NCBI GenBank assembly: GCA_026417625.1
Contig: JAOACW010000008.1
Coordinates: forward strand, 1 to 64,000
Source of the DNA: Syntrophales bacterium
Lineage (GTDB): Bacteria; Desulfobacterota; Syntrophia; Syntrophales; UBA8958
Direction of reading: 5' to 3'
DNA: 64,000 nt
Shown: piece by piece, positions 45,037 to 60,600 of the stretch
Numbering within the stretch: the first letter of the stretch is position 1
Layout of the letters: each line of letters starts with the position of its first letter
Translations under genes and position numbers: made by a program
The notes under the pieces: model-generated
The model's database searches: none
The model's input: the letters and a program-made list of their open reading frames with translations, nothing else
What the model was told of the DNA's origin: nothing

Positions 45037-46218
45037 CTAGTAACAGCGGCGACTCCCCAGAGATTTCTCAAGTTCCTGAAGTGCGTACATTTTTTGTAAC
45101 ACCTTCGTTATGATTTCGACCGCCCGTTTTATTTGTCTTTCTGTATTACCCCATCCGAGACTGAATCTCACTGTACCTCTTGCTACTTCCGGAGGAACTC
45201 CAAGAGCAGCAATCACATGAGATATGTCTTTCTTTCCTGAGGTGCATGCAGAACCCGCAGATACGGCTACACCTTCTTTATCAAGAGATTTTGTAATCTC
45301 TTCGCCATCAAGCATAGGAAATGAAATACTCAGAATATGGGGCAAGCGATTCTCAGTATTACCGTGTATACGACAATCGGGGAATTTTTCAATAATGGAT
45401 TTTTGAAGTAGATCACGTAAATACTGGAGATTTTCAGTTCTTTCTTGCATCTCCTTCTCTGCAATTTCACATGCCTTGCTATACCCCACAATTGCTGCGA
45501 CATTTTCTGTCCCCGCCCGGATATTTCTTTCTTGGTGACCTCCTGTAATTATAGGGCTGATTTTTGTGCCCCGTCTGACAAAGAGGGCGCCTACACCCTT
45601 TGGTCCGTTTATTTTATGAGCTGAAAATGACATGAGATCTACGGGTAAAAGCCTGACGTCGAGAGGAATTTTCCCCACAGTCTGCACAGCATCTATATGA
45701 AACAGAACACCGTTTTCTTCTGCAATTTTCCCTATAATTTCAACGGGTTCGATCGTACCTATTTCATTGTTCGCATGCATTATGGTTATCAGAATGGTTT
45801 TATCAGTGATCGCCTCTCTAATAGCATCAATGTCCACTGTACCTGTGCTATCAACTGGTATGTACGTGACGCTTAATCCCTTTCGTTCGAGGTCTCTGCA
45901 TGTGTTTAGCACCGATGGATGCTCAATAGCTGAGGTTATTATGTGTGTTCCTCTGTTTTGTTGACATTCTACCACACCACGAATAGCTAAATTGTTTGCT
46001 TCCGTACCGCTTCCAGTAAAGATAATCTCTTCCGCATCGGCGCCTATCAATCTGGCTACTTGATAACGAGATTCTTCAATTGCATTCTTCGTTACTTTTC
46101 CGAATGCATGCGTGCTTGATGGGTTTCCAAAGTGTTTTTTTATGAAGGGTACCATTGCTTCCCATACTTCTCTTCTTAGAGGAGTTGTAGCACAGTGGTC
46201 TAAATATATGGGTTTCAT
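45037..46218 (-). CDS. Cysteine desulfurase (IscS/NifS family)
   Basis: This 393-residue PLP enzyme takes sulfur from cysteine for Fe-S clusters or thio-cofactors. The N-terminus MKPIYLDHCATTPLR is typical. PLP Lys lies in SFSAHKINGPKGVGALF, and the persulfide Cys in VSAGSACTSG. The start at 46218 overlaps the stop of the Fe-S protein gene (ATGA), so translation is coupled. It is the last gene of the sigma-54 acyl-CoA operon. No IscU/NifU-type scaffold is adjacent, so it may supply clusters to the operon's own Fe-S protein. Confidence 0.95.
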   Translation of the reverse strand: MKPIYLDHCATTPLRREVWEAMVPFIKKHFGNPSSTHAFGKVTKNAIEESRYQVARLIGADAEEIIFTGSGTEANNLAIRGVVECQQNRGTHIITSAIEHPSVLNTCRDLERKGLSVTYIPVDSTGTVDIDAIREAITDKTILITIMHANNEIGTIEPVEIIGKIAEENGVLFHIDAVQTVGKIPLDVRLLPVDLMSFSAHKINGPKGVGALFVRRGTKISPIITGGHQERNIRAGTENVAAIVGYSKACEIAEKEMQERTENLQYLRDLLQKSIIEKFPDCRIHGNTENRLPHILSISFPMLDGEEITKSLDKEGVAVSAGSACTSGKKDISHVIAALGVPPEVARGTVRFSLGWGNTERQIKRAVEIITKVLQKMYALQELEKSLGSRRCY

Positions 46219-47207
46219 AGTTCGCCAATGGCTAGACGACAGATATCGGTAAGCATCAGAGGTATAAGATTTGCTGTTTTGCATTTGTCAGAGAGAGCAT
46301 CCAGGCACATTGGACAGAGAAAAACCATGGCCTGCGCGCCGCTCGCGACCGCATCTCGGACATTATCATCTTGAAAGTAGGGGAATTTATCTCCTCTTTT
46401 GACGAGACCTTTAAGATCCTGTCCGCAGCACATGGAGTTTTCCCTGTCGTAGGTCCGATTTACCCGAAAAACTCCAATCAAGTGAAAAATTTCATCGAGG
46501 AGTGGTTCTTTCCAAGGGGTTAAACGGGAGGCACAGGGTCTCTGATATGCTACCTTTACGTTAAGGGGTTTGACATTTGACTTCAATTCCTGAAGTTTGT
46601 CCCTTAGGTATTCAAACAAGTGTACAGGCCTAAAAGGTAGTTCGATACCGTATTGGGGTGCAAGGTCAGTCATTAATGTATAGCAGTCGTCATGCATAAA
46701 AATGATTTCATCGCAGCCAAAAGATGCGTATTTTTCAACTAGGTGAGGTAATTTTTCTTGAACGATACTCTTATTGCCAAGGTGCACAAATAAAACATTA
46801 CAGAAGAAGTGCCGTCCCCTTACCAATTCTAAACCTTCAAATAGTCTGCCTTCAGGGGGGTGGGGTAGATTGCCTGCAACTGTGCAGAGGGAGAGGATGC
46901 GACCTTTGACTTTAGGGGCTTGGAATGGTTCTTTAGGGGAAAAGCGTTCTTGAATTAAGGATAAAACGTTTGAATTTACGTAGTCACCTCTTTTCCCCAG
47001 ATGTTCCAAGATGAGGTCGAAAGGTCGGGCTCCCTTAGTGCAAAATTCATTGCACGCAAAACAGGTGATGCATTTATTTAACCATGCTCCTTCCCCAAAC
47101 TGGTATAGGTTCTTTAATGCTTTTCCTCCACTTACTTTATCGAAGTTCAAGTAAAGACAACTTTCGAGACATTCACCGCAGAAATCACATTTCCGCACGT
47201 CAAACAT
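46215..47207 (-). CDS. HdrD/GlpC-like iron-sulfur oxidoreductase subunit
   Basis: This 330-residue protein has two N-terminal 4Fe-4S motifs (CDFCGECLESC and CITCFACNEFC). A CCG-type region follows, with SMCCGQDLK and LCPMCLDAL near the C-terminus. The first CCG half is poorly conserved. Such proteins pass electrons between flavoproteins and quinones or thiols. In an operon with acyl-CoA dehydrogenases it probably takes electrons from them, directly or through ETF, which is not encoded here. It lies 14 bases behind the acyl-CoA dehydrogenase gene. Confidence 0.85.
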   Translation of the reverse strand: MFDVRKCDFCGECLESCLYLNFDKVSGGKALKNLYQFGEGAWLNKCITCFACNEFCTKGARPFDLILEHLGKRGDYVNSNVLSLIQERFSPKEPFQAPKVKGRILSLCTVAGNLPHPPEGRLFEGLELVRGRHFFCNVLFVHLGNKSIVQEKLPHLVEKYASFGCDEIIFMHDDCYTLMTDLAPQYGIELPFRPVHLFEYLRDKLQELKSNVKPLNVKVAYQRPCASRLTPWKEPLLDEIFHLIGVFRVNRTYDRENSMCCGQDLKGLVKRGDKFPYFQDDNVRDAVASGAQAMVFLCPMCLDALSDKCKTANLIPLMLTDICRLAIGEL

Positions 47208-47221
47208 GATTCCTCTTTCCC

Positions 47222-48400
47222 TCAGGAGAAATCTTTGAGGCCAAGGATTTCCCTAGCGATTATGAGGATCTGGATTTCGTCTGTTCCCCCTCCGATTTGC
47301 TGGAGTTTTGCATCGCGCATCATGCGCTCCACTGGGAATTCCTTCATATAGCCGTAGCCACCCAGTATTTGGACTGCTTCGGTCGTTATCTTCATAGCAG
47401 CTCTCGCTGTGAAAAGCTTAGTGTAGGAAGCTATAAGGTTCATTTCACGGGACATGTGCATACCCATATCGGCCATCTTAGCGCCTTTATAGGTGATAAG
47501 ATGTGAGAGCTCAATAAGCATCGCCATTTTTGCTAGTTTTGCTTGAATCAGTTGGAATGATGCAATTGGTTTTCCAAACTGGATCCTTTGTTTTGCATAA
47601 TTAAGTGCACATTCATAAGCACCACGGGAAAGACCAAGGGACATGGCACCTAGACATACCCTTTCTGTATTGAGACCACTCATAAGAACTTGGGCTCCTC
47701 TGTTTTCCCCACCGAGAAGATTCTCAGCGGGAACTAGGCAATCCTCAAATATCAGCTCACCAGTCGGTGATCCTCGCCAGCCCATCTTCTCAAACTTTTT
47801 CCCCCTCTGGAAACCGGGGAAGTTTTTTTCGACAATGAAGGCTGATACTCCCTTGGGGCCCATTTCGGGAGCGGTTTTTGCATAAACAACGAAGATGTCA
47901 CCCACAGGGCCATTGGATATAAAGATTTTACTACCGTTCAGTACATAAAAATCACCCCTGTGTTCCGCTTTAAGGCGCATGGACATTACGTCGGAACCAG
48001 CGGTGGGTTCCGTCATCGCCAACCCGCCGATCAATTCACCCTTGCAGAGAGATGGTAGGTACTTTTTTAGCTGAAATTCGTTTCCATTGCGTCTGATATT
48101 ATCAACACATAGTAGAGCGTGAGTTCCCCAGGAGGCAGCAGTGGAAAGGCAAACGGCGGACAATTCTTCGCATATTATGCATAACTCTGTGTAACCAGCA
48201 CCTCCGCCTCCGAACTCGGGTGGAACTGTGATACCCAAGAGTCCCATGTCTCGAAGCTTGTTAAAGCTCTCTATGGGAAAGCGTTCATCCCGGTCTATTT
48301 CATAAGCCAGAGGTGCGACCTCTTTTCGGGCAAATTGGCGTATCGTTTCCCTGAGCATCTTTTGTTCGTCTGTGAACTCAATCATATAAACCTCTTCCAT
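47222..48400 (-). CDS. Acyl-CoA dehydrogenase, isovaleryl-CoA dehydrogenase type
   Basis: This 392-residue FAD enzyme oxidises a short acyl-CoA to the 2-enoyl-CoA. Motifs are AMTEPTAGSDVMSMRLKAE, FISNGPVGDIFVVYAKT and VQILGGYGYMKEFPVERMMRD. The usual C-terminal catalytic Glu (YEGT) is missing (QIGGGTDEIQ). A Glu stands instead in SGLNTERVCLG, the position used by isovaleryl-CoA dehydrogenase. HALLCVDNIRRNGNE also matches that enzyme. An in-frame ATG at 48385 is an alternative start. The ribosome site overlaps an intercistronic hairpin. Confidence 0.93.
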   Translation of the reverse strand: MEEVYMIEFTDEQKMLRETIRQFARKEVAPLAYEIDRDERFPIESFNKLRDMGLLGITVPPEFGGGGAGYTELCIICEELSAVCLSTAASWGTHALLCVDNIRRNGNEFQLKKYLPSLCKGELIGGLAMTEPTAGSDVMSMRLKAEHRGDFYVLNGSKIFISNGPVGDIFVVYAKTAPEMGPKGVSAFIVEKNFPGFQRGKKFEKMGWRGSPTGELIFEDCLVPAENLLGGENRGAQVLMSGLNTERVCLGAMSLGLSRGAYECALNYAKQRIQFGKPIASFQLIQAKLAKMAMLIELSHLITYKGAKMADMGMHMSREMNLIASYTKLFTARAAMKITTEAVQILGGYGYMKEFPVERMMRDAKLQQIGGGTDEIQILIIAREILGLKDFS

Positions 48401-48407
48401 AATTACT

Positions 48408-48438
48408 CCCCGGTTGCCCTAAAAGAAGAGCAACCGGG
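48408..48438 (-). promoter_or_regulatory. Intercistronic stem-loop covering the acyl-CoA dehydrogenase ribosome site
   Basis: A perfect 9-bp inverted repeat (CCCGGTTGC at 48409-48417 with GCAACCGGG at 48430-48438, 12-nt loop) fills the 54-base gap between the CoA-transferase and dehydrogenase genes. In the minus-strand mRNA the 3' arm merges into the Shine-Dalgarno GGGGAG. No T-run follows in that direction, so it is not a simple terminator. Confidence 0.7.
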
Positions 48439-48454
48439 TTCTCCTCTTTTTCAA

Positions 48455-49789
48455 TCAGAATACTTTTTTCTTAAGCAAACCCATCTCTCTAGCTGCTTTC
48501 TCCAGTTCTTCGCGGAAGTTGGGATGGGCGATGTTGATTAGTGCCTCAGCCCTTTCCGGTTCTGTTCTTCCATAGAGATCTGCTATGCCATACTCAGTGA
48601 CCACTATACCCGCATAATGGCGGGGCACTGTAACGCGGGCACCGGGGCTCAATGTTGGAACAATGCGAGATCGTGTACCTTTCATTGCGGTGGAGGGAAG
48701 GAGGTTTATAGCTCTTCCACCAGGAGACAAGAAGGCACCAATGACGAAGTCGAGTTGTCCACCTGTTCCGCTTCTCATTCTGAAACCGTAAGATTCAGAG
48801 TTAATCTGACCGTAGAGATCTATCTCTACGGAGCCATTGATTGCCACCACGTTATGTTCCTGAGCTATTACACTTATGTTGTTTGCGTAGAACGTCTGTC
48901 GCCATTCGCACATAGGGTTATTGGCTAGAAAATCGTATAGTTCTTTGTCGCCGAGTGTGAAAGCGAGAACTATTTTGCCGGGATTTATTTTTTTGTATTT
49001 GCATGTAACAATGCCCTTTTCCACAAGTAGATGTGTTCCAGCAGGTGCCATTTCTGTGTGAATACCAAGATCTTTGAGATTTGAGTTCAGTAGCAACTTG
49101 CTTATCATTGCTGGAACTGCTCCAATACCCACCTGGAGGCAATCGCGATCTCTAATCAAGGAAACAACGTTTTCCGCCATTTTAACTTCTACATCTGAGG
49201 GTTGGGGAGTTGGTATTGCAGGAATTGGACTGGAATTTTCCACAAAAGCATCAAACATAGATACGTGGAAATTGGTTTCCCCGTATGTTCTTGGCATCTG
49301 ATCGTTTACTTCAGCGATGATGTAATCTGCTTGCTGCATAAGGGTGTAGGTATAAAAGGTGTCAAGGCCGAGGTTTACATAACCATGTTCATCAGGGGGT
49401 GTGACCTGCGTGATGATTCCCATCCTTCTCGGGTAAAGTCGCTTCCTATGGGGCATTTTTATTGCTATATCCGAACTCTGGCATGGCCAGAAATTTGCCC
49501 ATTCACTGTCGGCAAGTGCTTGCTGATGCGGCATGGGTGAGTAAAATGCTGGTACTAGCTTAAATGTATCTCGATATTCGGGTTGAAAGATCTTGTAAGG
49601 TCTTAAGACAAGGGCAAAGTTGTACTCTACATCTTCAAGTTCATCCTTCCGCGCTGCGATAGCGTCCATGATCAGGTTAGTGGGTTGACCAAGACAAAGT
49701 GGTGTCCAAAAGCGATCTCCAGATTTAATGAGTTTTGCTGCCTCTTCGGCACTCATCAATCTGCTTTTGTAGATTTCCTTCCAGCTCAT
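48455..49789 (-). CDS. Acetyl-CoA hydrolase/4-hydroxybutyrate CoA-transferase family protein
   Basis: This 444-residue class I-type CoA-transferase would activate a free acid with acetyl-CoA or another thioester. Seen features are TQVTPPDEHGYVNLGLD, DCLQVGIGAVPAMIS, the catalytic-Glu region SVEIDLYGQINSES and SGTGGQLDFVIGAFLSPGGRAI. These match AbfT/Cat-type enzymes. The substrate is not fixed by sequence. It would provide ATP-free entry of an acid into this operon's pathway. Confidence 0.92.
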   Translation of the reverse strand: MSWKEIYKSRLMSAEEAAKLIKSGDRFWTPLCLGQPTNLIMDAIAARKDELEDVEYNFALVLRPYKIFQPEYRDTFKLVPAFYSPMPHQQALADSEWANFWPCQSSDIAIKMPHRKRLYPRRMGIITQVTPPDEHGYVNLGLDTFYTYTLMQQADYIIAEVNDQMPRTYGETNFHVSMFDAFVENSSPIPAIPTPQPSDVEVKMAENVVSLIRDRDCLQVGIGAVPAMISKLLLNSNLKDLGIHTEMAPAGTHLLVEKGIVTCKYKKINPGKIVLAFTLGDKELYDFLANNPMCEWRQTFYANNISVIAQEHNVVAINGSVEIDLYGQINSESYGFRMRSGTGGQLDFVIGAFLSPGGRAINLLPSTAMKGTRSRIVPTLSPGARVTVPRHYAGIVVTEYGIADLYGRTEPERAEALINIAHPNFREELEKAAREMGLLKKKVF

Positions 49790-49833
49790 AGGTACCTCCT
49801 TTTATTTATTTTCCCCCATAGACAGGCTTTTTT

Positions 49834-50295
49834 CTACACAGGCTTGAAATAAAGAATATCCATGATATGTCCTTTTCGGTCTTCGCTCCAAACTGCCTTT
49901 ACCTTCATGCCGTTTTTCACAATTTTGGAGACATTCTCGAAGCTGCTGAGATCAAAGCCTCCAATGAGATGTAGGAAATTCACGTCTGTTCCATCTAGCC
50001 TTATAAGAGCACCAATGTAAGGTGGTTCTGTAGGCATACCGAAATAACGGTAATTCACATATGACCATGCTTCCACAGTTCCTTCCTGGTTTACTTCCAC
50101 CCACTCATCTGTTTCCACAAAGCACCGAGGACAAAAGCTCCTCGCAGGGACTAAAACCCTTTTACATTTTTTGCACTTGGTGCCGTATATTTTTTTCTCT
50201 TTCAATCCTTCGAAGAATCTTGTCCATGTAGCTCCGTATGCGATTTCATAGGGCAGATGAACTTCGGTTTTTAAGGTTCTATATTCTTTGGACAT
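49834..50295 (-). CDS. DUF35 Zn-ribbon/OB-fold protein
   Basis: This 153-residue protein has an N-terminal rubredoxin-like zinc ribbon (CKKCKRVLVPARSFCPRC) and an OB-fold DUF35 domain (TVEAWSYVNYRYFGMPTEPPYIGALIRLDG). Such proteins bind a neighbouring thiolase-like enzyme. Known examples are the archaeal thiolase/HMG-CoA synthase complex, BbsA with BbsB, and ChsH2 with the aldolase Ltp2. It lies 19 bases behind the first thiolase-like gene, in line with that partnership. Confidence 0.93.
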   Translation of the reverse strand: MSKEYRTLKTEVHLPYEIAYGATWTRFFEGLKEKKIYGTKCKKCKRVLVPARSFCPRCFVETDEWVEVNQEGTVEAWSYVNYRYFGMPTEPPYIGALIRLDGTDVNFLHLIGGFDLSSFENVSKIVKNGMKVKAVWSEDRKGHIMDILYFKPV

Positions 50296-50314
50296 CGCTT
50301 TACCTCCCCATTTT

Positions 50315-51481
50315 TTATATTTCCGATCCCAGGATCATAATGCCGTTAAACTGGTCCACCCCACCCATAGCGTGTGCGAGGGCCAGTCTTGCTCCAGGTA
50401 TTTGATGTTCTCCTGCTCTGCCTGTCACCTGGAGGGCTGCCTCTGCGACACGTATGAGACCTGTTGCACCAATGGGATTGGTGCACAGAACCCCTCCTGA
50501 CGGGCAAACAGGGAGCTCACCTTTTCGTGAGAATGTTCCTTTCAGAACTAAATCAGGTGCTGTACCAAAGTCACAAAAACCGAAGCATTCGTAGAATAAC
50601 ATTTCCTGGTATGTAAATGGATTGTATACTTCCGCAACATCGAGCTCCTTAAGTGGGTTTTTGATTCCCGCCTGGTCGTATGCCTGCTTGGCAGATTGGA
50701 TAGCGCTTTGCCACATAACTTTGTCGCTATCGCCAAAAAACTGTTCATCACCTCTGTATCCAACACCCTTCACCCACGCTGCTTTTCGGCCCATTTTTTT
50801 TGCTACCCTCTCAGAAGCGAAAATGACTGCACAAGCGCCATCAGAGTTGGGACATACATCCAACAGTCGAATGGGGTACGTTATTATACGTGAGTTTTTC
50901 ACATCATCCATTGTAACTTTTATCTTGATGTGTGCGTATGGATTGTCAAATGCGCTGTCATGGTGTGTTACGGAAATGTACGCGGCAGCATCTCGTATTT
51001 TTTCTTCTGGAAGGTTATAGCGAGCTGCCCACATCTGGGACTGCATGGAAAACACGCCTGGTGCTCCGGCTATGAAGTAGCGCTGGTAAAAAGGTTCTGC
51101 GACAGTAGTCATCGTGGCTTGACTATCCCCTTCTGACATCTTCTCGTGTCCCACGGCCAGCACGACATCTGCCATTCCCGATGCTACCCAGTAAAACGCC
51201 GTGTGGGCGATGGAAACCCCAGTGGAACCACAGGTTTCCGTTTTTAGAATGGGTTTACCCACAGCTTGCATGACCTCAGCGAAATAAAAATGGGTAAGGG
51301 CAATACCCTCCATCATTGAGGGCATTGTTCCGGATACTACACCGTCAATATCATTGGGGGAAAAGCCCGTATCTTCGAAAACCCTCACGATGGCTTCTCT
51401 AACGAGATCAGGATAGGAAACATCCAGTCTCCTTCCGTGATTTGTTTGACCTACGCCGACTATTGCAACTGCTCTTGCCAT
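50315..51481 (-). CDS. Thiolase-superfamily (lipid-transfer/SCP2-like) protein
   Basis: This 388-residue protein starts ARAVAIVGVGQTNHGRR. The nucleophile region reads TETCGSTGVS: C84 is one residue ahead of the usual C-x-[ST]-G position. The usual active-site His loop reads EVYNPFTYQEM, with Tyr where SCP2 thiolases have His, and the last loop is ALAHAMGG. Ltp2-type steroid aldolases also replace thiolase residues with Tyr. With DUF35 next door, C-C cleavage or condensation is likely; thiolysis is not certain. The start is the ATG behind TAGGAGGTG. Confidence 0.85.
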   Translation of the reverse strand: MARAVAIVGVGQTNHGRRLDVSYPDLVREAIVRVFEDTGFSPNDIDGVVSGTMPSMMEGIALTHFYFAEVMQAVGKPILKTETCGSTGVSIAHTAFYWVASGMADVVLAVGHEKMSEGDSQATMTTVAEPFYQRYFIAGAPGVFSMQSQMWAARYNLPEEKIRDAAAYISVTHHDSAFDNPYAHIKIKVTMDDVKNSRIITYPIRLLDVCPNSDGACAVIFASERVAKKMGRKAAWVKGVGYRGDEQFFGDSDKVMWQSAIQSAKQAYDQAGIKNPLKELDVAEVYNPFTYQEMLFYECFGFCDFGTAPDLVLKGTFSRKGELPVCPSGGVLCTNPIGATGLIRVAEAALQVTGRAGEHQIPGARLALAHAMGGVDQFNGIMILGSEI

Positions 51482-51493
51482 GATTTTCACCTC

Positions 51494-52636
51494 CTATCTT
51501 CCCAGGATAACCACACTGTGACATTGTCCGGCAAATCCGTGAGTTCCATGTACAAGGGCTGTTTTTATTTCTCTGTGAACTTGTCTTTCCCCTGCCTCAC
51601 CGCGTATCTGGAGGAAAGCTTCACAGGCGCGCTGTAAACCCCTTGAAACGTATGGGTTGTTAGCGAGAACACCCCCTGAAGGATTGACGGGGAGTTTACC
51701 GTTTTTTTCAGTTATTCCTTTATCTATCAACTTTCCTCCCTCACCTGGTTCACAGAATCCAAGTTGTTCGCACCATAGAAGTTCTTGAAATGCGTACGGT
51801 TCACTTATTTCTGCAAGATCGATTTCATTTTTTGGATTTTTTATCCCCGCCATCTTGTAAGCTCGTTTAGCTGCATTTTTGAGTTCACCGTCAAGGAGAT
51901 CACGATCCCCTATCATGTAAGCATCTATAGAGGTGCCGAAACCGCGAATCCAAACAGGTCGATCAGTAATTTTTTTTGCTGTTTTTTCAGAAGCGAGAAC
52001 CGCGGCCACCATACCATCCGATTTTGGCGCACATTGGAGTTTGGTTAATGGATCCGCTACAATCTCAGAATTAAGAACATCATCTACCGAGAAGATGCCT
52101 TTTCTATGGGCATGAGGGTTGAAAATGGCGTTTTTTAGGTTTTTTACCGCAACCTTTGCGCACTGCTCTTTGGAAATTTTGTACTTTTTCATGTACAGTT
52201 TCATCTGGAAAGCGGCTGCGAGTGTTTCATTGAGACCCAGCGGTCTGAAATAAAAGGGATCTGAAAACATGAGTGTACATGTGTCATTGTCTGGGTTTTC
52301 AGAACCTTTGCATAGGCTGATCGTTAACACTGTGTCGTAGTGCCCAGACATAATCCTCATCGCGCCGTATATCAAGGCGAAGAGGGAATCCCCATCCTGA
52401 CGTGAACCATTTTTCAAGAATGCCCCAGCTGGATCCCAGTGGTGAGCGTTAGCACAGGATATACCACTGTGAAACACATCCGATGCAGCAGTTATCACAC
52501 TTCCCACCTGGTCTCTTGATAGACCTGCCTTGTCTAGAGCCTCTTTGGCGACTTTAAAGGTTAGATCATACAAACTATCTTTTGATTCAGTACCACTGCT
52601 TTGAGCAACGGACACAATTGCGACTTTTTTTGCCAT
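51494..52636 (-). CDS. Thiolase-superfamily protein lacking the catalytic cysteine
   Basis: This 380-residue protein is homologous to its downstream neighbour, from MAKKVAIVSVAQSS to NPSGGVLANNPY. The segment aligned with the nucleophile is NGSRQDGDSLF, with Gln80 opposite the neighbour's Cys84 and no Cys nearby. The His loop is EISEPYAFQEL and the last loop ALVHGTHGFAG. It is either a non-catalytic subunit of a hetero-oligomer or an enzyme with other chemistry. AAAGGAG precedes the start; a longer frame would overlap the MaoC gene. Confidence 0.85.
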   Translation of the reverse strand: MAKKVAIVSVAQSSGTESKDSLYDLTFKVAKEALDKAGLSRDQVGSVITAASDVFHSGISCANAHHWDPAGAFLKNGSRQDGDSLFALIYGAMRIMSGHYDTVLTISLCKGSENPDNDTCTLMFSDPFYFRPLGLNETLAAAFQMKLYMKKYKISKEQCAKVAVKNLKNAIFNPHAHRKGIFSVDDVLNSEIVADPLTKLQCAPKSDGMVAAVLASEKTAKKITDRPVWIRGFGTSIDAYMIGDRDLLDGELKNAAKRAYKMAGIKNPKNEIDLAEISEPYAFQELLWCEQLGFCEPGEGGKLIDKGITEKNGKLPVNPSGGVLANNPYVSRGLQRACEAFLQIRGEAGERQVHREIKTALVHGTHGFAGQCHSVVILGR

Positions 52637-52649
52637 ATACTCACTCCTT

Positions 52650-53108
52650 TCAACCCGCGGGTTTTCTTCCCACGAGGATCTTAGTGTTAAAAAAGATAAC
52701 CGTTTCACCTTTCTGGTTTTTTATAGCGTTTTGAGCTTCTATGATCCCTCTTTTAGAATCCTTTTCCGTTAGGGCAGAAATGGTCATCTCACAGTGTATA
52801 GTGTCCCCAATTTTTATGGGGGCTGTGAAACGGACAGTGTCCATACCGTAGAATGCGATGAAACTCTTCGGTACTGCTACGTAGGGTCCGAGTCGAAAGA
52901 GAAGGGCCATTCCTACCGTTAGACCCAGCATTCCATGAGCAATTCGCTCTCCAAACGGAGTTTTAGCCGCATATTCGACATTGGTGTGAAGTTCGTGCCA
53001 GTCTCCCGTGAAAGCTGAGAACAACACAATATCCGTTTCTGTAATGGTCCTGCCGGGAGAAACCAAAACCTCTCCTACTTTGTAGTCTTCAAAAAACTCC
53101 TTTTCCAT
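52650..53108 (-). CDS. MaoC-family enoyl-CoA hydratase
   Basis: This 152-residue single hot-dog domain has the catalytic Asp/His pair in FTGDWHELHTNVEYA and the FGERIAHGMLGLTVG motif of R-specific hydratases. It would add water to the enoyl-CoA made by the dehydrogenases. It starts 12 bases after the first gene of the operon. MaoC, DUF35 and thiolase-like genes together recall the ChsH1/ChsH2/Ltp2 steroid side-chain set. Confidence 0.93.
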   Translation of the reverse strand: MEKEFFEDYKVGEVLVSPGRTITETDIVLFSAFTGDWHELHTNVEYAAKTPFGERIAHGMLGLTVGMALLFRLGPYVAVPKSFIAFYGMDTVRFTAPIKIGDTIHCEMTISALTEKDSKRGIIEAQNAIKNQKGETVIFFNTKILVGRKPAG

Positions 53109-53120
53109 TTTACACCCCCT

Positions 53121-54281
53121 CTACATTTTGAAGATTTCCCTAGCGATGATGAGCCTTCTCATTTCTGATGTTCCCGCACCTATGGTTCCTAGCTTTGCAT
53201 CTCTCCAGTATCTCTGCACTGGAAACTCAAGACAATAGCCATAACCTCCATGAATTTGGACCGCCTCCTCACATACATAACATGCTGTTTCAGCAGATAA
53301 GAGAATAGCTGCCGCTGCTACTTTGTGCACTTCTGTTCCCTTTCCACCTCTCTGTGCAGCGTCGGCGAGCATTACAGCCTTGTAACATAGCAATTTTGCC
53401 GCCTCGATGCGTGTGTACATATCAGCGATTTTCTGCTGGATAAGCTGAAAAGAGGCAATGGGTTTGCCAAACTGCACTCTTTGGCGAGCATATTCCACTG
53501 AAGCTTCAAACGCCGCTTCGGCTAAACCCAAACTGTAGGCGGAGAAAAAAGCTCTTTCCACGTCAAGGCCACCCATCATTACTGCGATACCGTTATTTTC
53601 TATGCCAAGCACGTTTTCAACAGGAATTAAACAATCCTCCAAAATCAATTCTCCTGTTGCGGAACCACGGTTTCCCACCTTTTCTATCTTTCTGGAAACT
53701 GAAAATCCCGGAAAGGTGGTATCAAGGATAAAAGCGGTTATGCCTCTAGGCCCCAAGCTTTTATCAGTTTTAGCGTAGAGAACAATAGTTCTGGCAATTG
53801 GACCGTTTGTAATAAACGTCTTGGTTCCGTTGACAACGTAATAATCACCTTTTCGAACTGCAGTTGTTTGGATATTCACGGCGTCGGAACCTGCACCAGG
53901 TTCCGTAAGTCCTAAAGCACCGATGTGTTCTCCACTGCATAGAGGTGGTAGGTATTTCTTTTTCTGACTATCGTTGGCATTGGTGTTGATGTTATGGCAA
54001 CAAAGATTGGCGTGTGCTCCCCAGGATAGTGCAACGGCTCCCGAAGCTTTTGCAAGTTCTTCACACGCTAGAAAAGCTGACATGAGGTCAGCCCCCGCTC
54101 CTCCGTATTCCTGGTCCACTGTAATGCCCATTATGCCCAAGTTGGCGAGTTTCTCCCAAAGCCCTTCTGGCCATTCATCCTTTCGGTCAATTTCCTCAGC
54201 TATGGGAGCAATTTCTTTGGCAGCAAAGTTTGCGATGGTTTGTTTAAATATACGGTGTTCCTCCGAAAGAGTAAAATCCAT
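53121..54281 (-). CDS. Acyl-CoA dehydrogenase, isovaleryl-CoA dehydrogenase type
   Basis: This 386-residue FAD enzyme is the first gene of the sigma-54 operon. It shows GLTEPGAGSDAVNIQTTAV, FITNGPIARTIVLYAKT and IHGGYGYCLEFPVQRYWRD. The C-terminus reads TIGAGTSEMRRLIIAREI, like isovaleryl-CoA dehydrogenase (GAGTSE), with the catalytic Glu expected in GGLDVERAFFSAY. It is clearly a paralogue of the 47222 enzyme. The two might form a heteromer or act on different substrates. Confidence 0.94.
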   Translation of the reverse strand: MDFTLSEEHRIFKQTIANFAAKEIAPIAEEIDRKDEWPEGLWEKLANLGIMGITVDQEYGGAGADLMSAFLACEELAKASGAVALSWGAHANLCCHNINTNANDSQKKKYLPPLCSGEHIGALGLTEPGAGSDAVNIQTTAVRKGDYYVVNGTKTFITNGPIARTIVLYAKTDKSLGPRGITAFILDTTFPGFSVSRKIEKVGNRGSATGELILEDCLIPVENVLGIENNGIAVMMGGLDVERAFFSAYSLGLAEAAFEASVEYARQRVQFGKPIASFQLIQQKIADMYTRIEAAKLLCYKAVMLADAAQRGGKGTEVHKVAAAAILLSAETACYVCEEAVQIHGGYGYCLEFPVQRYWRDAKLGTIGAGTSEMRRLIIAREIFKM

Positions 54282-54498: not shown

Positions 54499-57400
54499 AT
54501 GTCCAGACGTAACTTTGAGATAAATCAACTCTCCCTGACGGAAAGAGATTTACTCTTCTCACTAGCCGCTTTTCAGGATTTTTTCTCTCTTGATTGGTTT
54601 CTAGATGTAGAAGGGTTCCGTCCCTCCTGTATAGTTTCTGTAGTTAATTTTTTGAAGCAAAAAAAGTGGATTACCTCACTTGATAGTTCTTTTGGTTTTT
54701 ATCGCTGGACTTGCAGTTTCCCGCGAGATGAAGTTTTATTACTTATCCCGGAAAACGAAAAGATGTTCTATCTTCGCAGGGCGGCTGATTTATTAAAAAG
54801 GCATTTGCCCTCTGAAAGAAAATACCTACCCTTATTGGCCGAATCACTTATAAAAGCTGGTCTTCGCGATGAAGACTTACCACTTCTTTTAGAGGCGGCG
54901 TTTTACGAGGAAGAGTGTCATCGTACATCACAAGCAGTGAGGATTTACGATACTCTGCTAACTTTCCTATTTTGTGAAGTGATTCCCGATGAGAGGATTA
55001 ACTCTGAAGATTTCTTTAAAATAATGCTCACCGCTCTTGAACGACGCGTAATGCTCTCTCTTCTCTACCCGGACATAAAAAAGATGGGGCCATGGTTATT
55101 GAAGGCCCGAGAAGTGGCTGGTGATGTGGAGGATGTAAGATCCCTCGCAAGGTTGGAATTGTTAATAGGACAGTTCTATTGGATGAGTTTTCAGTATGAG
55201 CAGTCGGTGCAACACTTCGAATCAGCGTGGGGCATGATCGAAAAATTTGATGATATGTCTCTGAGGAAGCGGGGACTTCAACTGAGAAGTCTTTCGTTTC
55301 TGATAAGGGGTAACTTGTGTAAAGCTATTCAGGCCTATGAAGAATATCTTGGGGAGCTTGAAGAATACGGGAAAGACGATTTTTCTCTAATTACGGCCTT
55401 GCACCTTTGCCAGTGTTATACCCAGATAGGAATGCCACAGAGGGCCCTTGGCATTGCTGAGTCAATTCTGGATTTCGCAAAGAAGCAAAATAACTGGCCA
55501 ATTGTTTGTTTTTCCCTAGCTACCGCTGGTGTTGTTCTCTTGGAAATGATGCATTTGAAAGAGAGTCGCGATTACTTCGAGAAGGCTTTGGAAATTTCCA
55601 GGAAAGAGAACATACCTATGGCTGAAATAATTGCAGGGATTGGGCTTGCAAATATAGAATGTTTGGAGGGCTACTTTGAAAGGGCGGCGGAGCACTTCAA
55701 GGTTCTTTTTAAGATCCGAAAGTCAAGCTGGTATCACACATTGAACGTTTTTCATATCTTTGAACCTGGTTTCATACTACATCGTCATGGCAAATCTCCG
55801 ATGCCTCTCGAATCAGTTATAGGATACCTTTCAGGTTTGAAGGAACATCAGTTGAATCCAATTCTGCACAGCACAATAAGACGACTAAAAATAAAATACC
55901 TTGAGCCGGATTATCAGGCTAAGGATAAGATTAGAGAGCTGAGGGGTATTGAAAGCACCCTGGAAAAGGTTGGCGCGCATCTGGAACTGGCAAAAACGAG
56001 AATTGATCTTGCGCGCCTTTACCTTGAGGTCAAACAGTGGTCAGAAGCAGAAGAGGTCGCCCTTAAGGCCTGGGATTTTCTAAGAAGGGTAACTAAAGCC
56101 GCTTTTCCAAGTGATTTGAAAGGTCTTTTATCTTTGGATGAGGGGGATGACACTAGATTATACGATATAATCATCGAGATGGGGGAGGCTCTTACGACGC
56201 AGAAAAATACGGAACATCTGTTGACGAATATTGTCGCATCCATTTCAAGATTGACAGGTGCTGAAAGGGCAGCGATATTTATAATGGACAAACGGTCATC
56301 GGAGTATCGCATCGTAGCGTCCCGAAATCTTACAAGAGAATATTTCGATTCTCGAGAGTTTAAAATGGTCAAAGCCTCTATGAGCGAGGTGACGATTAAA
56401 AAGGACAGTCGTGTCATACAGACTGAAAACTTCGGAGATAAGACTAATGGAAGAAGAAAAATAATCCTCACACCTCTTCTTCTAGGAAAACAGGTCATAG
56501 GAATTCTTTATCAGGATAGTCGCTACTTTTCGCTAGATCTTACACCTGACGGCCTCCGTCTCCTTTCTGCTTTAGGTGCTCAGATAGCTGTTTCCATCGA
56601 TAGAGCGAAGGCGTACGATGAGATTGTGGAACTTAACGAAAAACTCATGGCTCAGAACATTTACTATCAGGAGGAGAAAGAGGAATTCCGACCTTTTGGT
56701 GATATTGTCTATTCTAGCAAAGCGATGAGAGATCTCATTAACATGATACATAAAGTAGCGCCAACGAAATCCACCGTTCTTATTACTGGCGAAACTGGTG
56801 TTGGGAAAGAGCTGATTGCAAGAGCAATCCACAGAGAGAGTGCTCGACGAAATGGACCTTTTATCAGGGTTAACTGTGCTGCTCTACCAGAAACGCTAAT
56901 TGACAGTGAACTTTTTGGTCACGAAAAGGGGGCTTTCACTGGGGCCACACGTTTAAAACCTGGTCGTTTTGAACTAGCAAATCAGGGAACTATATTTCTC
57001 GATGAAGTTTCGGAGCTGCCCCTTTCGACCCAGAGCAGGCTGCTTCGCGTCCTTCAGGAAGGTGAGTTTCAACGTGTAGGTGGGACCAAAATGCTTTATT
57101 CAGATTTTCGCCTTCTTGCTGCTACTAATAAAGATCTGGAGAAGGAAGTTCACGCGGGACGATTCCGATCAGATTTGTATTTTCGGCTGAATGTTTTCCC
57201 CATCAGAGTGCCACCTTTGAGGGAACGTAAGGAGGATATTATCCCGCTTGCCCAGCATTTCCTCAGGCGCTTCTCCCAACAATACAATAAACCGTGTCCT
57301 TCAATTCCTCGCGGAGAAATGGAAAAGCTTATGAACTATTCTTGGCCTGGAAATGTTCGTGAATTGGCCAACGTAATAGAAAGAGCTGTTATTCTCGGTG

Positions 57401-57639
57401 ATTTCGATATTCGGTTACCCACCATTTCTAATCATTCAAAGTATTTTGAAATAGAGGGACCATTTCTCACATTGAAAGAGATGGAGCGGAAACATATCAT
57501 TGAGGCTCTGCAGATAACAGGGGGGAGGCTTGGGGGTAAAAAAGGAGCAGCAGCGCTTCTGGGCGTAAAGAGAACTACCCTCATCCACAGAATGAAAAAA
57601 TTGGGGATCAATGTAAATAGAAACCTTATAATTGAATAA
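54499..57639 (+). CDS. Large sigma-54-dependent transcriptional activator (TPR-like + GAF + AAA+ + Fis HTH)
   Basis: This 1046-residue protein has a mostly helical N-terminal half (about 1-560) with TPR-like repeats (for example ALHLCQCYTQIGMPQRALGIAESIL). A GAF-like sensor domain spans about 567-705. The AAA+ domain (about 735-965) has Walker A GETGVGKE near 763, the sigma-54 contact loop GAFTGA near 813 and DLYFRLNVFPIRVPPLRER. A Fis-type HTH closes it (GGKKGAAALLGVKRTTLIHRMKKLGI). No phosphoreceiver domain is present, so it is likely controlled by a ligand or by protein binding. It is divergent from the operon with the consensus sigma-54 promoter, and upstream of a second catabolic unit. 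GAGGGGGGTGATAGT precedes the start. Confidence 0.95.
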   Translation: MSRRNFEINQLSLTERDLLFSLAAFQDFFSLDWFLDVEGFRPSCIVSVVNFLKQKKWITSLDSSFGFYRWTCSFPRDEVLLLIPENEKMFYLRRAADLLKRHLPSERKYLPLLAESLIKAGLRDEDLPLLLEAAFYEEECHRTSQAVRIYDTLLTFLFCEVIPDERINSEDFFKIMLTALERRVMLSLLYPDIKKMGPWLLKAREVAGDVEDVRSLARLELLIGQFYWMSFQYEQSVQHFESAWGMIEKFDDMSLRKRGLQLRSLSFLIRGNLCKAIQAYEEYLGELEEYGKDDFSLITALHLCQCYTQIGMPQRALGIAESILDFAKKQNNWPIVCFSLATAGVVLLEMMHLKESRDYFEKALEISRKENIPMAEIIAGIGLANIECLEGYFERAAEHFKVLFKIRKSSWYHTLNVFHIFEPGFILHRHGKSPMPLESVIGYLSGLKEHQLNPILHSTIRRLKIKYLEPDYQAKDKIRELRGIESTLEKVGAHLELAKTRIDLARLYLEVKQWSEAEEVALKAWDFLRRVTKAAFPSDLKGLLSLDEGDDTRLYDIIIEMGEALTTQKNTEHLLTNIVASISRLTGAERAAIFIMDKRSSEYRIVASRNLTREYFDSREFKMVKASMSEVTIKKDSRVIQTENFGDKTNGRRKIILTPLLLGKQVIGILYQDSRYFSLDLTPDGLRLLSALGAQIAVSIDRAKAYDEIVELNEKLMAQNIYYQEEKEEFRPFGDIVYSSKAMRDLINMIHKVAPTKSTVLITGETGVGKELIARAIHRESARRNGPFIRVNCAALPETLIDSELFGHEKGAFTGATRLKPGRFELANQGTIFLDEVSELPLSTQSRLLRVLQEGEFQRVGGTKMLYSDFRLLAATNKDLEKEVHAGRFRSDLYFRLNVFPIRVPPLRERKEDIIPLAQHFLRRFSQQYNKPCPSIPRGEMEKLMNYSWPGNVRELANVIERAVILGDFDIRLPTISNHSKYFEIEGPFLTLKEMERKHIIEALQITGGRLGGKKGAAALLGVKRTTLIHRMKKLGINVNRNLIIE

Positions 57640-57840: not shown

Positions 57841-59103
57841 ATGTTACTCGACGTGTTGTTAACAGAGGAAGAGAAGGTTTTGAAGCAGGAAGTGAGGGAG
57901 TTTGTGAAAGGGGTATCGCCTGAATTAACTAAAAAACTTGATAAAGATGAGATTCAGTATCCCAGAGACTATGTGAAGAGACTTGGGGAGTTAAATCTAC
58001 TCGGTCTCCGATTTCCGAAGGAATACGGGGGAAGGGGATTACCCTGGACTGCTGAAATTGCTGCTCTGGAAGAAATCGGTGTTCTTGGGACGGCGCTGGG
58101 TTGTGCTTTCGCTATGCCCTCGATTGTAGGCGAGGCGCTTTGCGTTTTTGGTACGGAGGAACAGAAGGAGAAGTTCCTTAAACCCATGTTGAGAGGCGAA
58201 CTTGTGTCTGCTGAAGCGCTTACTGAACCTAGAGGGGGCTCTGATTTCTTTGGAGCCACGACGAGGGCTGAATTGAAGAATGGGATTTTTACCGTCAGAG
58301 GTCAGAAGAGATTTGTCGTGGGAGCTTCCAGCGCGGATTTCTTTCTTGTGTACGTTAACACGAACCCAGCGGGTAAACCTCACGAGAGAATAAGTTTGCT
58401 TATCATAGAACGAGATCGGCCGGGTGTGGAGGTTAAATATCTTTACGGGCTCATGGGGACAAGGGGTGGAGGAACTGGAAGACTCGTGTTTAGAGATGTT
58501 CAAGTTCCAGAATCAAATCTTGTCGGAAAGCTTAACGAAGGGGCCCACATATTCAACACCATGATGGTACCAGAAAGGTTAACATCCGCCGGTGCATCTC
58601 TGGGTATGGGGAGAGCGGCACTGGAAGTTGCGGTCCGTTACAGTGATCGTCGCAAGGCTTTTGGTCAGAAGATTAGGACATTTCAGGGTGTAAGCTTCAA
58701 AGTCGCTGAGGCGATTACCCAACTGGATGCTGCGAGGGCCTTGACTTATGCGGCTGGTAAGGCAGCGGATCTGAAACTACCTACGACTCGCCGCCTTGTA
58801 AGTGAAGCTAAGAAGTTTGCCACTGATGCGGCGTGGAATGTAATCAATCTCTCGATGCAAATAGTGGGGGGTATAGGTTATACAAATGTATTTCCCATAG
58901 AGAAAATGGTTCGTGATGCAAGACTCATCCAGATCTGGACGGGTACTAATGAGATCATGAATCTTCTCATTCAGCATGAGTTCTACAGAGAAATGCTTAC
59001 CGATCCCAACCCCGGCCGCAACATAGAGATTGATGCTCATGAAGGTCACATGAAGGATGAGATTGTCTACGAAGACGAGGAGATGTGGACAAAAGGATGG
59101 TAA
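57841..59103 (+). CDS. Acyl-CoA dehydrogenase family protein
   Basis: This 420-residue flavoprotein differs from the two in the minus-strand operon. It has LTEPRGGSDFFGATTRAEL, QIVGGIGYTNVFPIEKMVRD and QIWTGTNEIMNLL. The usual C-terminal catalytic Glu is Thr (WTGT); a Glu occurs in MMVPERLTSAG at the isovaleryl-type position. An extra acidic tail of about 30 residues follows the domain. AAAGGGGGATCTTGG precedes the start. The AbfD-like gene starts 36 bases on, so they form one unit and may act in sequence. Confidence 0.92.
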   Translation: MLLDVLLTEEEKVLKQEVREFVKGVSPELTKKLDKDEIQYPRDYVKRLGELNLLGLRFPKEYGGRGLPWTAEIAALEEIGVLGTALGCAFAMPSIVGEALCVFGTEEQKEKFLKPMLRGELVSAEALTEPRGGSDFFGATTRAELKNGIFTVRGQKRFVVGASSADFFLVYVNTNPAGKPHERISLLIIERDRPGVEVKYLYGLMGTRGGGTGRLVFRDVQVPESNLVGKLNEGAHIFNTMMVPERLTSAGASLGMGRAALEVAVRYSDRRKAFGQKIRTFQGVSFKVAEAITQLDAARALTYAAGKAADLKLPTTRRLVSEAKKFATDAAWNVINLSMQIVGGIGYTNVFPIEKMVRDARLIQIWTGTNEIMNLLIQHEFYREMLTDPNPGRNIEIDAHEGHMKDEIVYEDEEMWTKGW

Positions 59104-59139
59104 ACAATTGCACTTGCGTTGAAGGGGGTGAAGGAACCC

Positions 59140-60600
59140 ATGATAATGGATGGGAAGGATTATATTTCTAGTCTGGAGAAAATGGAGACGGTAGTCTATA
59201 TAGGAGGAGAGCGCGTGCGGGAATACTGGAAGCATCCTGCTATTCAGCCTGCAGTTAATGCACTCGCTGCAACGTACGATCTTGCAAGCAACTCCACTCT
59301 GAATGAGGAGATTCACGAATTGATTGTCACCGAAAGTCCGTTGACAGGCGACAAAATAAATCGTTTCCTCCACATCATCCAATCACAAGAGGATCTCCTA
59401 GCTCGGATGAAACTACAACGAGCTCTGATGAGGTTCACCGGGGGATGTTTTGGTGGCAGGTGTGTTGCTGGGGCAGTTATAAACGCCCTTTGGTCCGTAA
59501 CCTATGAGGTTGACAGAGCAAACGGTGGAAAAACAGAGTACCATAAGCGGTTTTCCGCATATGTTAAGATGTGCCAGGAGAAGGATCTCGCCGTTTCGGG
59601 CAATATAACCGATGCGAAGGGTGATAGATCGAAACCACCGCATAAACAGGCAGACAGCGATCTCTTTGTTAGAATTGTGGAGAAGAGAAAGGATGGTATT
59701 GTTGTAAATGGCGCTAAACTTCAGCAATCGGGAGCACCTATTGCCCATGAGAGGCTTGTGGTTCCCACAACTGCGTTAGGTCCTGATGATGAAGTGTATG
59801 CAGTGGCTTTTGCTGTTCCGGGGGATGCAGAGGGGGTGATCCACGTTAATGACACTGCATGTGTAAATTCTAAGTTTATGTCCATGGAGCCCGAGGATAT
59901 AGGAAATGTAAAATACGGTATACATCAGAGTGCTCACGTTATTTTTGATCACGTTTTTGTACCATGGGAGAGAGTTTTTCTATGCGGTGAGTGGAAAGCT
60001 ACGAGAGCTCTAGTACATAGGTTCTCTGACTTCCAGAGGTTTGCGTCCTCTGCTTGTCGCTGTGGTTATATAGACCTCTGTATAGGTGCAGGTCTTGCTA
60101 TGGCTGATTACAACGGTGTGGCGGATAAAACACACATAGTGGATAAGCTTATAGACATGAGCATAGATGCGGAAACCCTCCAAGGATTGGTGGCAGGAGC
60201 AGCGGCTTTGGCCTATAAAACTACATCTGGTGTTATGGTACCAGAGACGCTCACTGTAAATGCAGCTAAATTGTATATGAACGAGGCAATTTTGAAAACC
60301 GCTCAGAGACTTGCCGATATCGGTGGGGGGATCCTAGTCACAAGGCCCAGCATTAAGGACCTTCAAATCCCGAAAATAGGTGATCTTTTGAAGAAGTACC
60401 ACCAAGCGAGAAGATGGGAAGATACGGATAAAAGAATCAAGATGGCACGCCTTTGTGAAACCCTAGCCGGTCTTGGATCACCCACACCGATCCTATCGGT
60501 TATTGCAGCTGGTCCTCCGGCAACACAGAGACTTAATTTTCGCCTGTTTACGCCTTTTGAAAGGGATAGAAAAGCAGCAGAACGTTTGGCGGGGATTTAA
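59140..60600 (+). CDS. 4-Hydroxybutyryl-CoA dehydratase-like flavoprotein with altered active-site residues
   Basis: This 486-residue protein belongs to the HpaB/AbfD superfamily. DAKGDRSKPPHKQADSDLFVRIVEKR and GAKLQQSGAPIAHE (residues about 158-205) match 4-hydroxybutyryl-CoA dehydratase closely. Compared with the C. aminobutyricum enzyme recalled from memory, the Cys pair is spaced C103-x4-C108 rather than C-x3-C. The ligand His292 is Gln299, Tyr296 is Ser303 and Glu455 aligns with Leu452. Cys299 is kept as C306, and an extra C308 is present. It is probably not the classical dehydratase. The ATG was chosen behind GGGGGTGAAGGA. Confidence 0.85.
   Translation: MIMDGKDYISSLEKMETVVYIGGERVREYWKHPAIQPAVNALAATYDLASNSTLNEEIHELIVTESPLTGDKINRFLHIIQSQEDLLARMKLQRALMRFTGGCFGGRCVAGAVINALWSVTYEVDRANGGKTEYHKRFSAYVKMCQEKDLAVSGNITDAKGDRSKPPHKQADSDLFVRIVEKRKDGIVVNGAKLQQSGAPIAHERLVVPTTALGPDDEVYAVAFAVPGDAEGVIHVNDTACVNSKFMSMEPEDIGNVKYGIHQSAHVIFDHVFVPWERVFLCGEWKATRALVHRFSDFQRFASSACRCGYIDLCIGAGLAMADYNGVADKTHIVDKLIDMSIDAETLQGLVAGAAALAYKTTSGVMVPETLTVNAAKLYMNEAILKTAQRLADIGGGILVTRPSIKDLQIPKIGDLLKKYHQARRWEDTDKRIKMARLCETLAGLGSPTPILSVIAAGPPATQRLNFRLFTPFERDRKAAERLAGI

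Follow-up and report, generated by a model that had tools for sequence, protein, structure and literature searches.

A conserved operon of Syntrophales encodes a thiolase-fold subunit with retro-aldolase-type active-site residues

The characterized retro-aldolases of the thiolase superfamily, Ltp2 and Sal, come from aerobic steroid degraders. In the Sal enzyme of Comamonas testosteroni (CtSal), a Gly at the position of the thiolase nucleophile makes thiolysis impossible, and a Tyr at the position of the His in the thiolase HDxF motif is essential, the Y302F variant being nearly inactive (PMC12329534). ThnQS, an AtuA-like lyase of anaerobic naphthalene degradation, splits a tertiary 3-hydroxyacyl-CoA made by an acyl-CoA dehydrogenase (ACAD) and a hydratase (PMC12016498, citing unpublished work). 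Here we describe an operon whose gene logic matches that of the mycobacterial igr set and of Sal-Shy, located in the first 64,000 nucleotides (the window) of contig JAOACW010000008.1 from an uncultured Syntrophales bacterium (GenBank GCA_026417625.1; genome G000, 1.79 Mb, 32 contigs, 97.8% complete). On balance, the operon is best read as a CoA-dependent module for acid degradation, in which a lyase replaces the last two steps of β-oxidation.

A first-pass annotation, made from the letters of the sequence and their open reading frames, had listed a CoA-transferase, two dehydrogenases, a MaoC hydratase, a DUF35 protein, and two thiolase-like proteins. All of these parts are present, on the minus strand and exactly at 47222-54281, the genes lying 3 to 54 bp apart and most of them being preceded by Shine-Dalgarno-like sequences. 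In order of transcription they are:

53121-54281, minus strand: ACAD1, an acyl-CoA dehydrogenase of the isovaleryl-CoA dehydrogenase (IVD) clade, by structure match, residues, and tree
52650-53108, minus strand: MaoC-fold enoyl-CoA hydratase, GDxxxxH catalytic motif intact (GDWHELH)
51494-52708, minus strand: ThlA, a degenerate thiolase-fold subunit with no nucleophile Cys, SEPY for HDxF, and NNPYVSRG for GHPxGxSG; the probable start is the ATG at 52636, 13 bp past MaoC and with a Shine-Dalgarno-like GGAG
50315-51490, minus strand: ThlB, a thiolase-fold subunit in which Gly88, Tyr289 (YNPF), and Asn338 (TNPIGATG) form a signature of the retro-aldolase type
49834-50295, minus strand: DUF35/OB-fold zinc-ribbon partner, zinc finger C-x2-C-x10-C-x2-C
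48455-49789, minus strand: Cat1/AbfT-type acyl-CoA:acetate CoA-transferase, the presumed substrate activator, with an HTE motif holding the probable catalytic Glu
47222-48400, minus strand: ACAD2, a second IVD-type acyl-CoA dehydrogenase, by residues, tree, and recurrence in relatives

A 4Fe-4S/CCG protein and a NifS-type aminotransferase follow. Inspection of the genes at 47222-54281 revealed neither a 3-hydroxyacyl-CoA dehydrogenase nor a biotin carboxylase.

The active site of ThlB resembles that of a carbon-carbon lyase rather than that of a thiolase. Alignment with solved structures places Gly88 at the nucleophile position and Tyr289 at the HDxF His, with Asn338 in the TNPIGATG segment. 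The Cys-thiolases BbsB (7pxp), zebrafish SCP2 (6hsj), and the Pyrococcus furiosus enzyme (7yvy) have their nucleophile Cys in a CxxG motif, together with the His residues of HDxF and GHP. All three of these residues are replaced in ThlB, which rules out a normal thiolase of the BbsB type. The same alignment shows the Cys-to-Gly and His-to-Tyr replacements in ThlB, TcLtp2 (6ok1, YDHF), and CtSal (9myr, YDCY) alike, the Asp and His of the Ltp2 YDHF being replaced by Asn and Pro in the YNPF of ThlB. Across 28 ThlB homologs, down to 35% identity, Gly88, Tyr289, Pro291, and Asn338 do not vary. The absence of a normal Cys motif, noted in the first-pass annotation, holds for both ThlA and ThlB; that annotation was silent on Cys87 of ThlB, which directly precedes the nucleophile position, is kept in close orthologs, and is Gly in related paralogs.

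ThlA is probably a structural partner, because the nucleophile Cys and both catalytic His residues (HDxF and GHP) are missing from its sequence. The predicted structures of ThlA and ThlB confirm the thiolase fold (Foldseek). The best matches include thiolases, BbsB, Sal, and Ltp2, and because both kinds of enzyme are among them the fold does not separate thiolase from aldolase. In an IQ-TREE phylogeny, Ltp2 and Sal share one clade, and BbsB, SCP2, and archaeal thiolases another. ThlB, its paralogs, and a homolog from a Rhodococcus plasmid form a third group, the join being moderately supported (91/96), and ThlA forms a fourth. ThlB as an ortholog of Ltp2 is ruled out by its separation from 6ok1 in this tree.

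Conservation of the locus was followed in 100 relatives. ThlA orthologs with 67-73% identity are found in 16 genomes besides that of the window, from many families of the order, and the arrangement regulator, ACAD1-MaoC-ThlA-ThlB-DUF35-CoA-transferase-ACAD2 is kept in these genomes apart from some losses (MaoC, for example, in G013 and G032). The operon is not a chance assembly, since its gene order is kept in so many families. ThlA-ThlB pairs of lower similarity (about 60-65% and 40-47%) are differently arranged, alongside AMP-ligases and crotonases and with DUF35 present as one gene or two. In Smithella sp. SCADC (L101, 9.1-13.5 kb) a ThlA-DUF35-ThlB-DUF35 set adjoins an ACAD2 homolog that is 76% identical, with an AMP-ligase in related metagenome-assembled genomes; this locus could offer a handle on function in a cultured lineage. 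The sister group of ACAD2 likewise recurs beside ThlA/ThlB in other genomes. Some relatives have up to about 18 ThlA-like matches per genome, and relatives of ThlB at E below 1e-75 occur in 25/148 genomes sampled from the phylum.

Hydroxyacyl-CoA dehydrogenases also went undetected at other ThlA/ThlB loci. Thirty loci were surveyed to a distance of 6 kb from ThlA/ThlB with three reference 3-hydroxyacyl-CoA dehydrogenases, and none gave a match, in a search that divergent dehydrogenases could escape. Within the same distance, an acyl-CoA dehydrogenase is present in 25/30 loci and a hydratase in 21/30, and at one locus a short-chain dehydrogenase/reductase (SDR) lies about 5 kb away. Five of the seven ordinary thiolases of the window genome have a hydroxyacyl-CoA dehydrogenase in their neighborhood. 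The retro-aldol logic of the first-pass annotation, which joined a dehydrogenase, MaoC, and a lyase assisted by DUF35, is therefore supported by the Gly/Tyr signature that ThlB has in common with Ltp2 and Sal, and by conserved loci in which no hydroxyacyl-CoA dehydrogenase was detected.

Several observations weigh against a lyase. In overall fold and sequence, ThlB is as close, or closer, to true thiolases as to aldolases. It stands outside the Ltp2/Sal clade, so that the signature is common to both groups and the function is not inherited by orthology. ThlB lacks the second catalytic Tyr of Ltp2 (Tyr344, the general acid; Asn338 here) and Cys304 of Sal (Pro291 here). Hydroxyacyl-CoA dehydrogenases are encoded elsewhere in the genome, and the survey of neighbors relied on few reference proteins. 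Finally, the Cys87 kept by orthologs next to the nucleophile position makes a relocated nucleophile conceivable. ThlA-ThlB-DUF35 might then be an unconventional thiolase that uses Cys87, with one of the dehydrogenases encoded elsewhere completing ordinary β-oxidation, and it would suit this explanation that the closest solved relatives in sequence and fold include true thiolases, for example BbsAB with its DUF35 partner. However, the HDxF and GHP His residues are both gone, Cys87 gives way to Gly in related ThlB paralogs while Gly88 and Tyr289 are invariant, and hydroxyacyl-CoA dehydrogenases went undetected within 6 kb of the conserved loci. We consider such a shifted-Cys thiolase fairly unlikely.

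The remaining enzymes are consistent with a degradative route that ends in a lyase. The MaoC GDxxxxH motif, the DUF35 C4 zinc finger, and the CoA-transferase HTE motif are all intact, and the DUF35 gene is adjacent to ThlB, its membership in a ThlA-ThlB-DUF35 complex being predicted from the genes. In the proposed scheme, the CoA-transferase would activate a short acid, which ACAD1 and ACAD2, working with electron-transfer flavoprotein and the iron-sulfur protein, would convert to a 2-enoyl-CoA for hydration by MaoC to the 3-hydroxyacyl-CoA. The ThlA-ThlB-DUF35 complex would then split this intermediate by retro-aldol cleavage, giving acetyl-CoA (or propionyl-CoA) and a ketone or aldehyde. Tyr289 of ThlB would deprotonate the 3-hydroxyl, and Gly88 would give room where thiolases hold the nucleophilic Cys, with ThlA acting mainly as a structural partner and DUF35 as a zinc-ribbon scaffold. 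The substrate is probably a 3-branched acid, the most sensible choice because its tertiary 3-hydroxy intermediate cannot be oxidized to a ketone. The mechanism as a whole is plausible and somewhat more probable than not, with better support than the first-pass annotation could know.

The dehydrogenases bear on the identity of this acid. The best solved relatives of both ACAD1 and ACAD2 are isovaleryl-CoA dehydrogenases (ACAD1, 393 bits to the IVD 4kto). In both, the catalytic Glu is placed as in IVDs ("xxER") and its usual position is occupied by Gly, ACAD1 reading GLDVERAFF and TIGAGT, and in the tree ACAD1 falls within the clade of authentic IVDs (100/97), to which ACAD2 is sister. Closest structures, catalytic residues, and phylogeny thus bear out the earlier description of these enzymes as isovaleryl-type. 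The substrate suggested at that time was isovaleryl-CoA, which would pass through 3-methylcrotonyl-CoA and 3-hydroxy-3-methylbutyryl-CoA to acetone and acetyl-CoA, as a special case of the scheme above. The assignment of the ACADs would agree with this, as would a CoA-transferase belonging to a short-chain family and a tertiary 3-hydroxyl that accounts for the missing dehydrogenase.

The rest of the genome weakens this choice of substrate. A cluster at 116.7-120.5 kb of contig C2 encodes a carboxyltransferase of the methylcrotonyl-CoA carboxylase (MCC) β clade, a crotonase assigned the role of 3-methylglutaconyl-CoA hydratase by position only, and a protein like 3-hydroxy-3-methylglutaryl-CoA (HMG-CoA) lyase. 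The carboxyltransferase scores about 388 bits to MCC-β structures (3u9r) and at most 169 bits outside the MCC/GCC-type group; its top match (389.5 bits) is a protein named propionyl-CoA carboxylase β. A true HMG-CoA lyase (304.7 bits vs the NCBIfam cut-off of 246) is encoded at 141.6 kb of C2 and lies inside the MCC-β cluster in several relatives. A third IVD-clade ACAD, with IVD-like residues and placed there by the tree, is found at 300.6 kb of contig C1. An absence from the genome of any biotin-dependent carboxylase route is therefore rejected. The search for MCC that had been proposed recovered the β-clade carboxyltransferase, and no dedicated MCC biotin carboxylase (α subunit) was found in the 97.8%-complete assembly. 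The only biotin carboxylase detected, a single Biotin_carb_N protein (C12, 5.3 kb), is about 2 kb from a 646-aa HMGL-family open reading frame resembling a pyruvate-carboxylase partner. The leucine pathway, whose presence elsewhere had been named as evidence against the proposal, is thus largely encoded outside the operon, except for a dedicated MCC biotin carboxylase, which was not found.

The distribution of MCC-β points the same way. A close MCC-β gene is present in 14/17 operon-bearing and 34/83 operon-less genomes (Fisher p = 0.003, relatedness not corrected), and with so many operon-bearing genomes carrying it the operon is not a substitute for a missing MCC. Operon-bearing genomes that lack MCC were considered as support for an isovalerate bypass and set aside, as only G014, G037, and G087 of the 17 are without a close MCC-β; the contig of G037 stops shortly after the crotonase of the MCC-β cluster, so that a break in the assembly may account for the missing gene. 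Acetone carboxylase was rejected as the next step, its γ subunit being absent from this genome and from 15 of the 17 operon-bearing genomes (present in two). A literature search on 3-hydroxy-3-methylbutyryl-CoA with acetone and isovalerate returned nothing relevant. In a survey of methanogenic bioprocesses, uncultured Syntrophales were assigned a route for isovalerate degradation that uses carboxylation and a lyase (PMC7382037). Isovaleryl-CoA cleavage would also leave unexplained the genes for β-keto acid cleavage enzymes (BKACE) that recur in relatives, inside the ThlA/ThlB loci or next to them. As the main role of the operon, conversion of isovaleryl-CoA to acetone is possible but unlikely. 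A two-subunit CoA-transferase-like pair (IpdA/IpdB by resemblance only) was observed with or near the MCC-β/HMG-CoA-lyase cluster in two loci (L045, 16149-17933; L143, 4.7-6.5 kb).

The BKACE genes lie near ThlA-ThlB in L077, L081, L083-L085, L088, L090, L092, L094, L096, and L099. Five of them encode proteins 84-85% identical to the BKACE of the window genome itself, which scores just under the 3,5-dioxohexanoate-type family (428.5 vs a cut-off of 430). Their recurrence could hint at a synthetic direction or other carbanion chemistry, such as aldol addition of acetyl-CoA to a ketone or a β-keto-acid exchange with BKACE, and the fold does also support acyltransferases such as PhlABC. The CoA-transferase, the dehydrogenases, and the iron-sulfur protein look degradative, however, and no BKACE is encoded in the window, which makes these alternatives very unlikely.

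Two features flank the seven genes:

46215-47207, minus strand: 4Fe-4S/CCG-domain protein, a probable electron-transfer partner, downstream of ACAD2 in several relatives too
54499-57639, plus strand: sigma-54-dependent activator (TPR, GAF, AAA+, Fis HTH), the probable regulator, divergent from the operon and beside it in most type-I loci

The last operon gene (window 45037-46284), for the NifS-type aminotransferase, overlaps the iron-sulfur gene; less conserved homologs, 51-58% identical, are similarly placed in relatives. Beside the regulator, at window 57841-60600, are ACAD3 and a protein of the 4-hydroxybutyryl-CoA dehydratase/vinylacetyl-CoA isomerase type (336 bits to 6vjr), whose Cys motif has one extra residue (CFGGRC vs CFQRC in 6vjr). 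The dehydratase-type gene accompanies the operon in several relatives, but no coherent scheme was found that would make it part of the pathway. A flavoprotein like 2,4-dienoyl-CoA reductase (Oxidored_FMN + Pyr_redox) is encoded near the operon in several relatives (L060, 0.5-2.5 kb; L061, 1.2-3.2 kb) and was not seen in the window.

It is tempting to speculate that ThlA-ThlB-DUF35 represents a heteromeric family of thiolase-fold retro-aldolases, the third such family and of independent origin, with many paralogs in Syntrophales and elsewhere in the phylum. Through it, syntrophs could cleave tertiary 3-hydroxyacyl-CoAs derived from non-steroid acids, perhaps taking isovalerate to acetone and acetyl-CoA, with no need for oxidation or carboxylation; this broader proposal is tentative. 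If the ThlA-ThlB-DUF35 module has retro-aldol activity, many genes of uncultured syntrophs now called thiolases are mis-annotated, and models of methanogenic food webs miss a degradation of branched acids that releases ketones or aldehydes and spares the carboxylation step. Gly and Tyr at two positions would then provide a simple sequence test to tell lyases from thiolases in metagenomes.

Among known systems, the steroid side-chain aldolase of Actinobacteria (Ltp2-ChsH1/ChsH2 with ChsE1/ChsE2; 6ok1) likewise combines two ACADs, MaoC, DUF35, and a thiolase-fold lyase without a hydroxyacyl-CoA dehydrogenase, and Ltp2 resembles ThlB in its Gly at the nucleophile position and Tyr at the HDxF position. 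The two differ in that ThlB belongs to another clade and has Asn338 in place of Tyr344, in that MaoC and DUF35 are here separate proteins and a second, degenerate thiolase subunit (ThlA) is added, and in the IVD-type ACADs, short-acid CoA-transferase, and anaerobic host of the present operon. The Sal-Shy bile-acid aldolase of C. testosteroni (9myr; PMC12329534) is also a thiolase-fold aldolase bound to DUF35, in which Gly and Tyr stand where thiolases have Cys and His. However, Sal requires Cys304 (YDCY), where ThlB has Pro, the zinc finger of Shy is C3H1 rather than C4, and the Sal substrate yields an aldehyde.

The benzoylsuccinyl-CoA thiolase BbsAB (7pxp) has in common with the operon an anaerobic pathway, a DUF35 partner, and the same thiolase subfamily, but BbsB retains Cys as the nucleophile, along with HDAF and GHP, and sits in the thiolase clade. 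ThnQS is an anaerobic answer to the same problem of a tertiary 3-hydroxyacyl-CoA, although it is AtuA-like rather than of the thiolase/DUF35 type and its operon content is different. A cluster on plasmid pLP1 of Rhodococcus qingshengii (NZ_CP088909.1, about 38-44 kb) differs in its aerobic host, in the LLM-type and mycofactocin-coupled SDR oxidoreductases nearby, and in having a CaiB-type CoA-transferase plus ligase. In common with the Syntrophales operon, it combines a ThlB homolog (44%, YAPF, Gly-Gly) with a short ThlA-like protein, a zinc-ribbon OB-fold protein, two ACADs, and two MaoC proteins.

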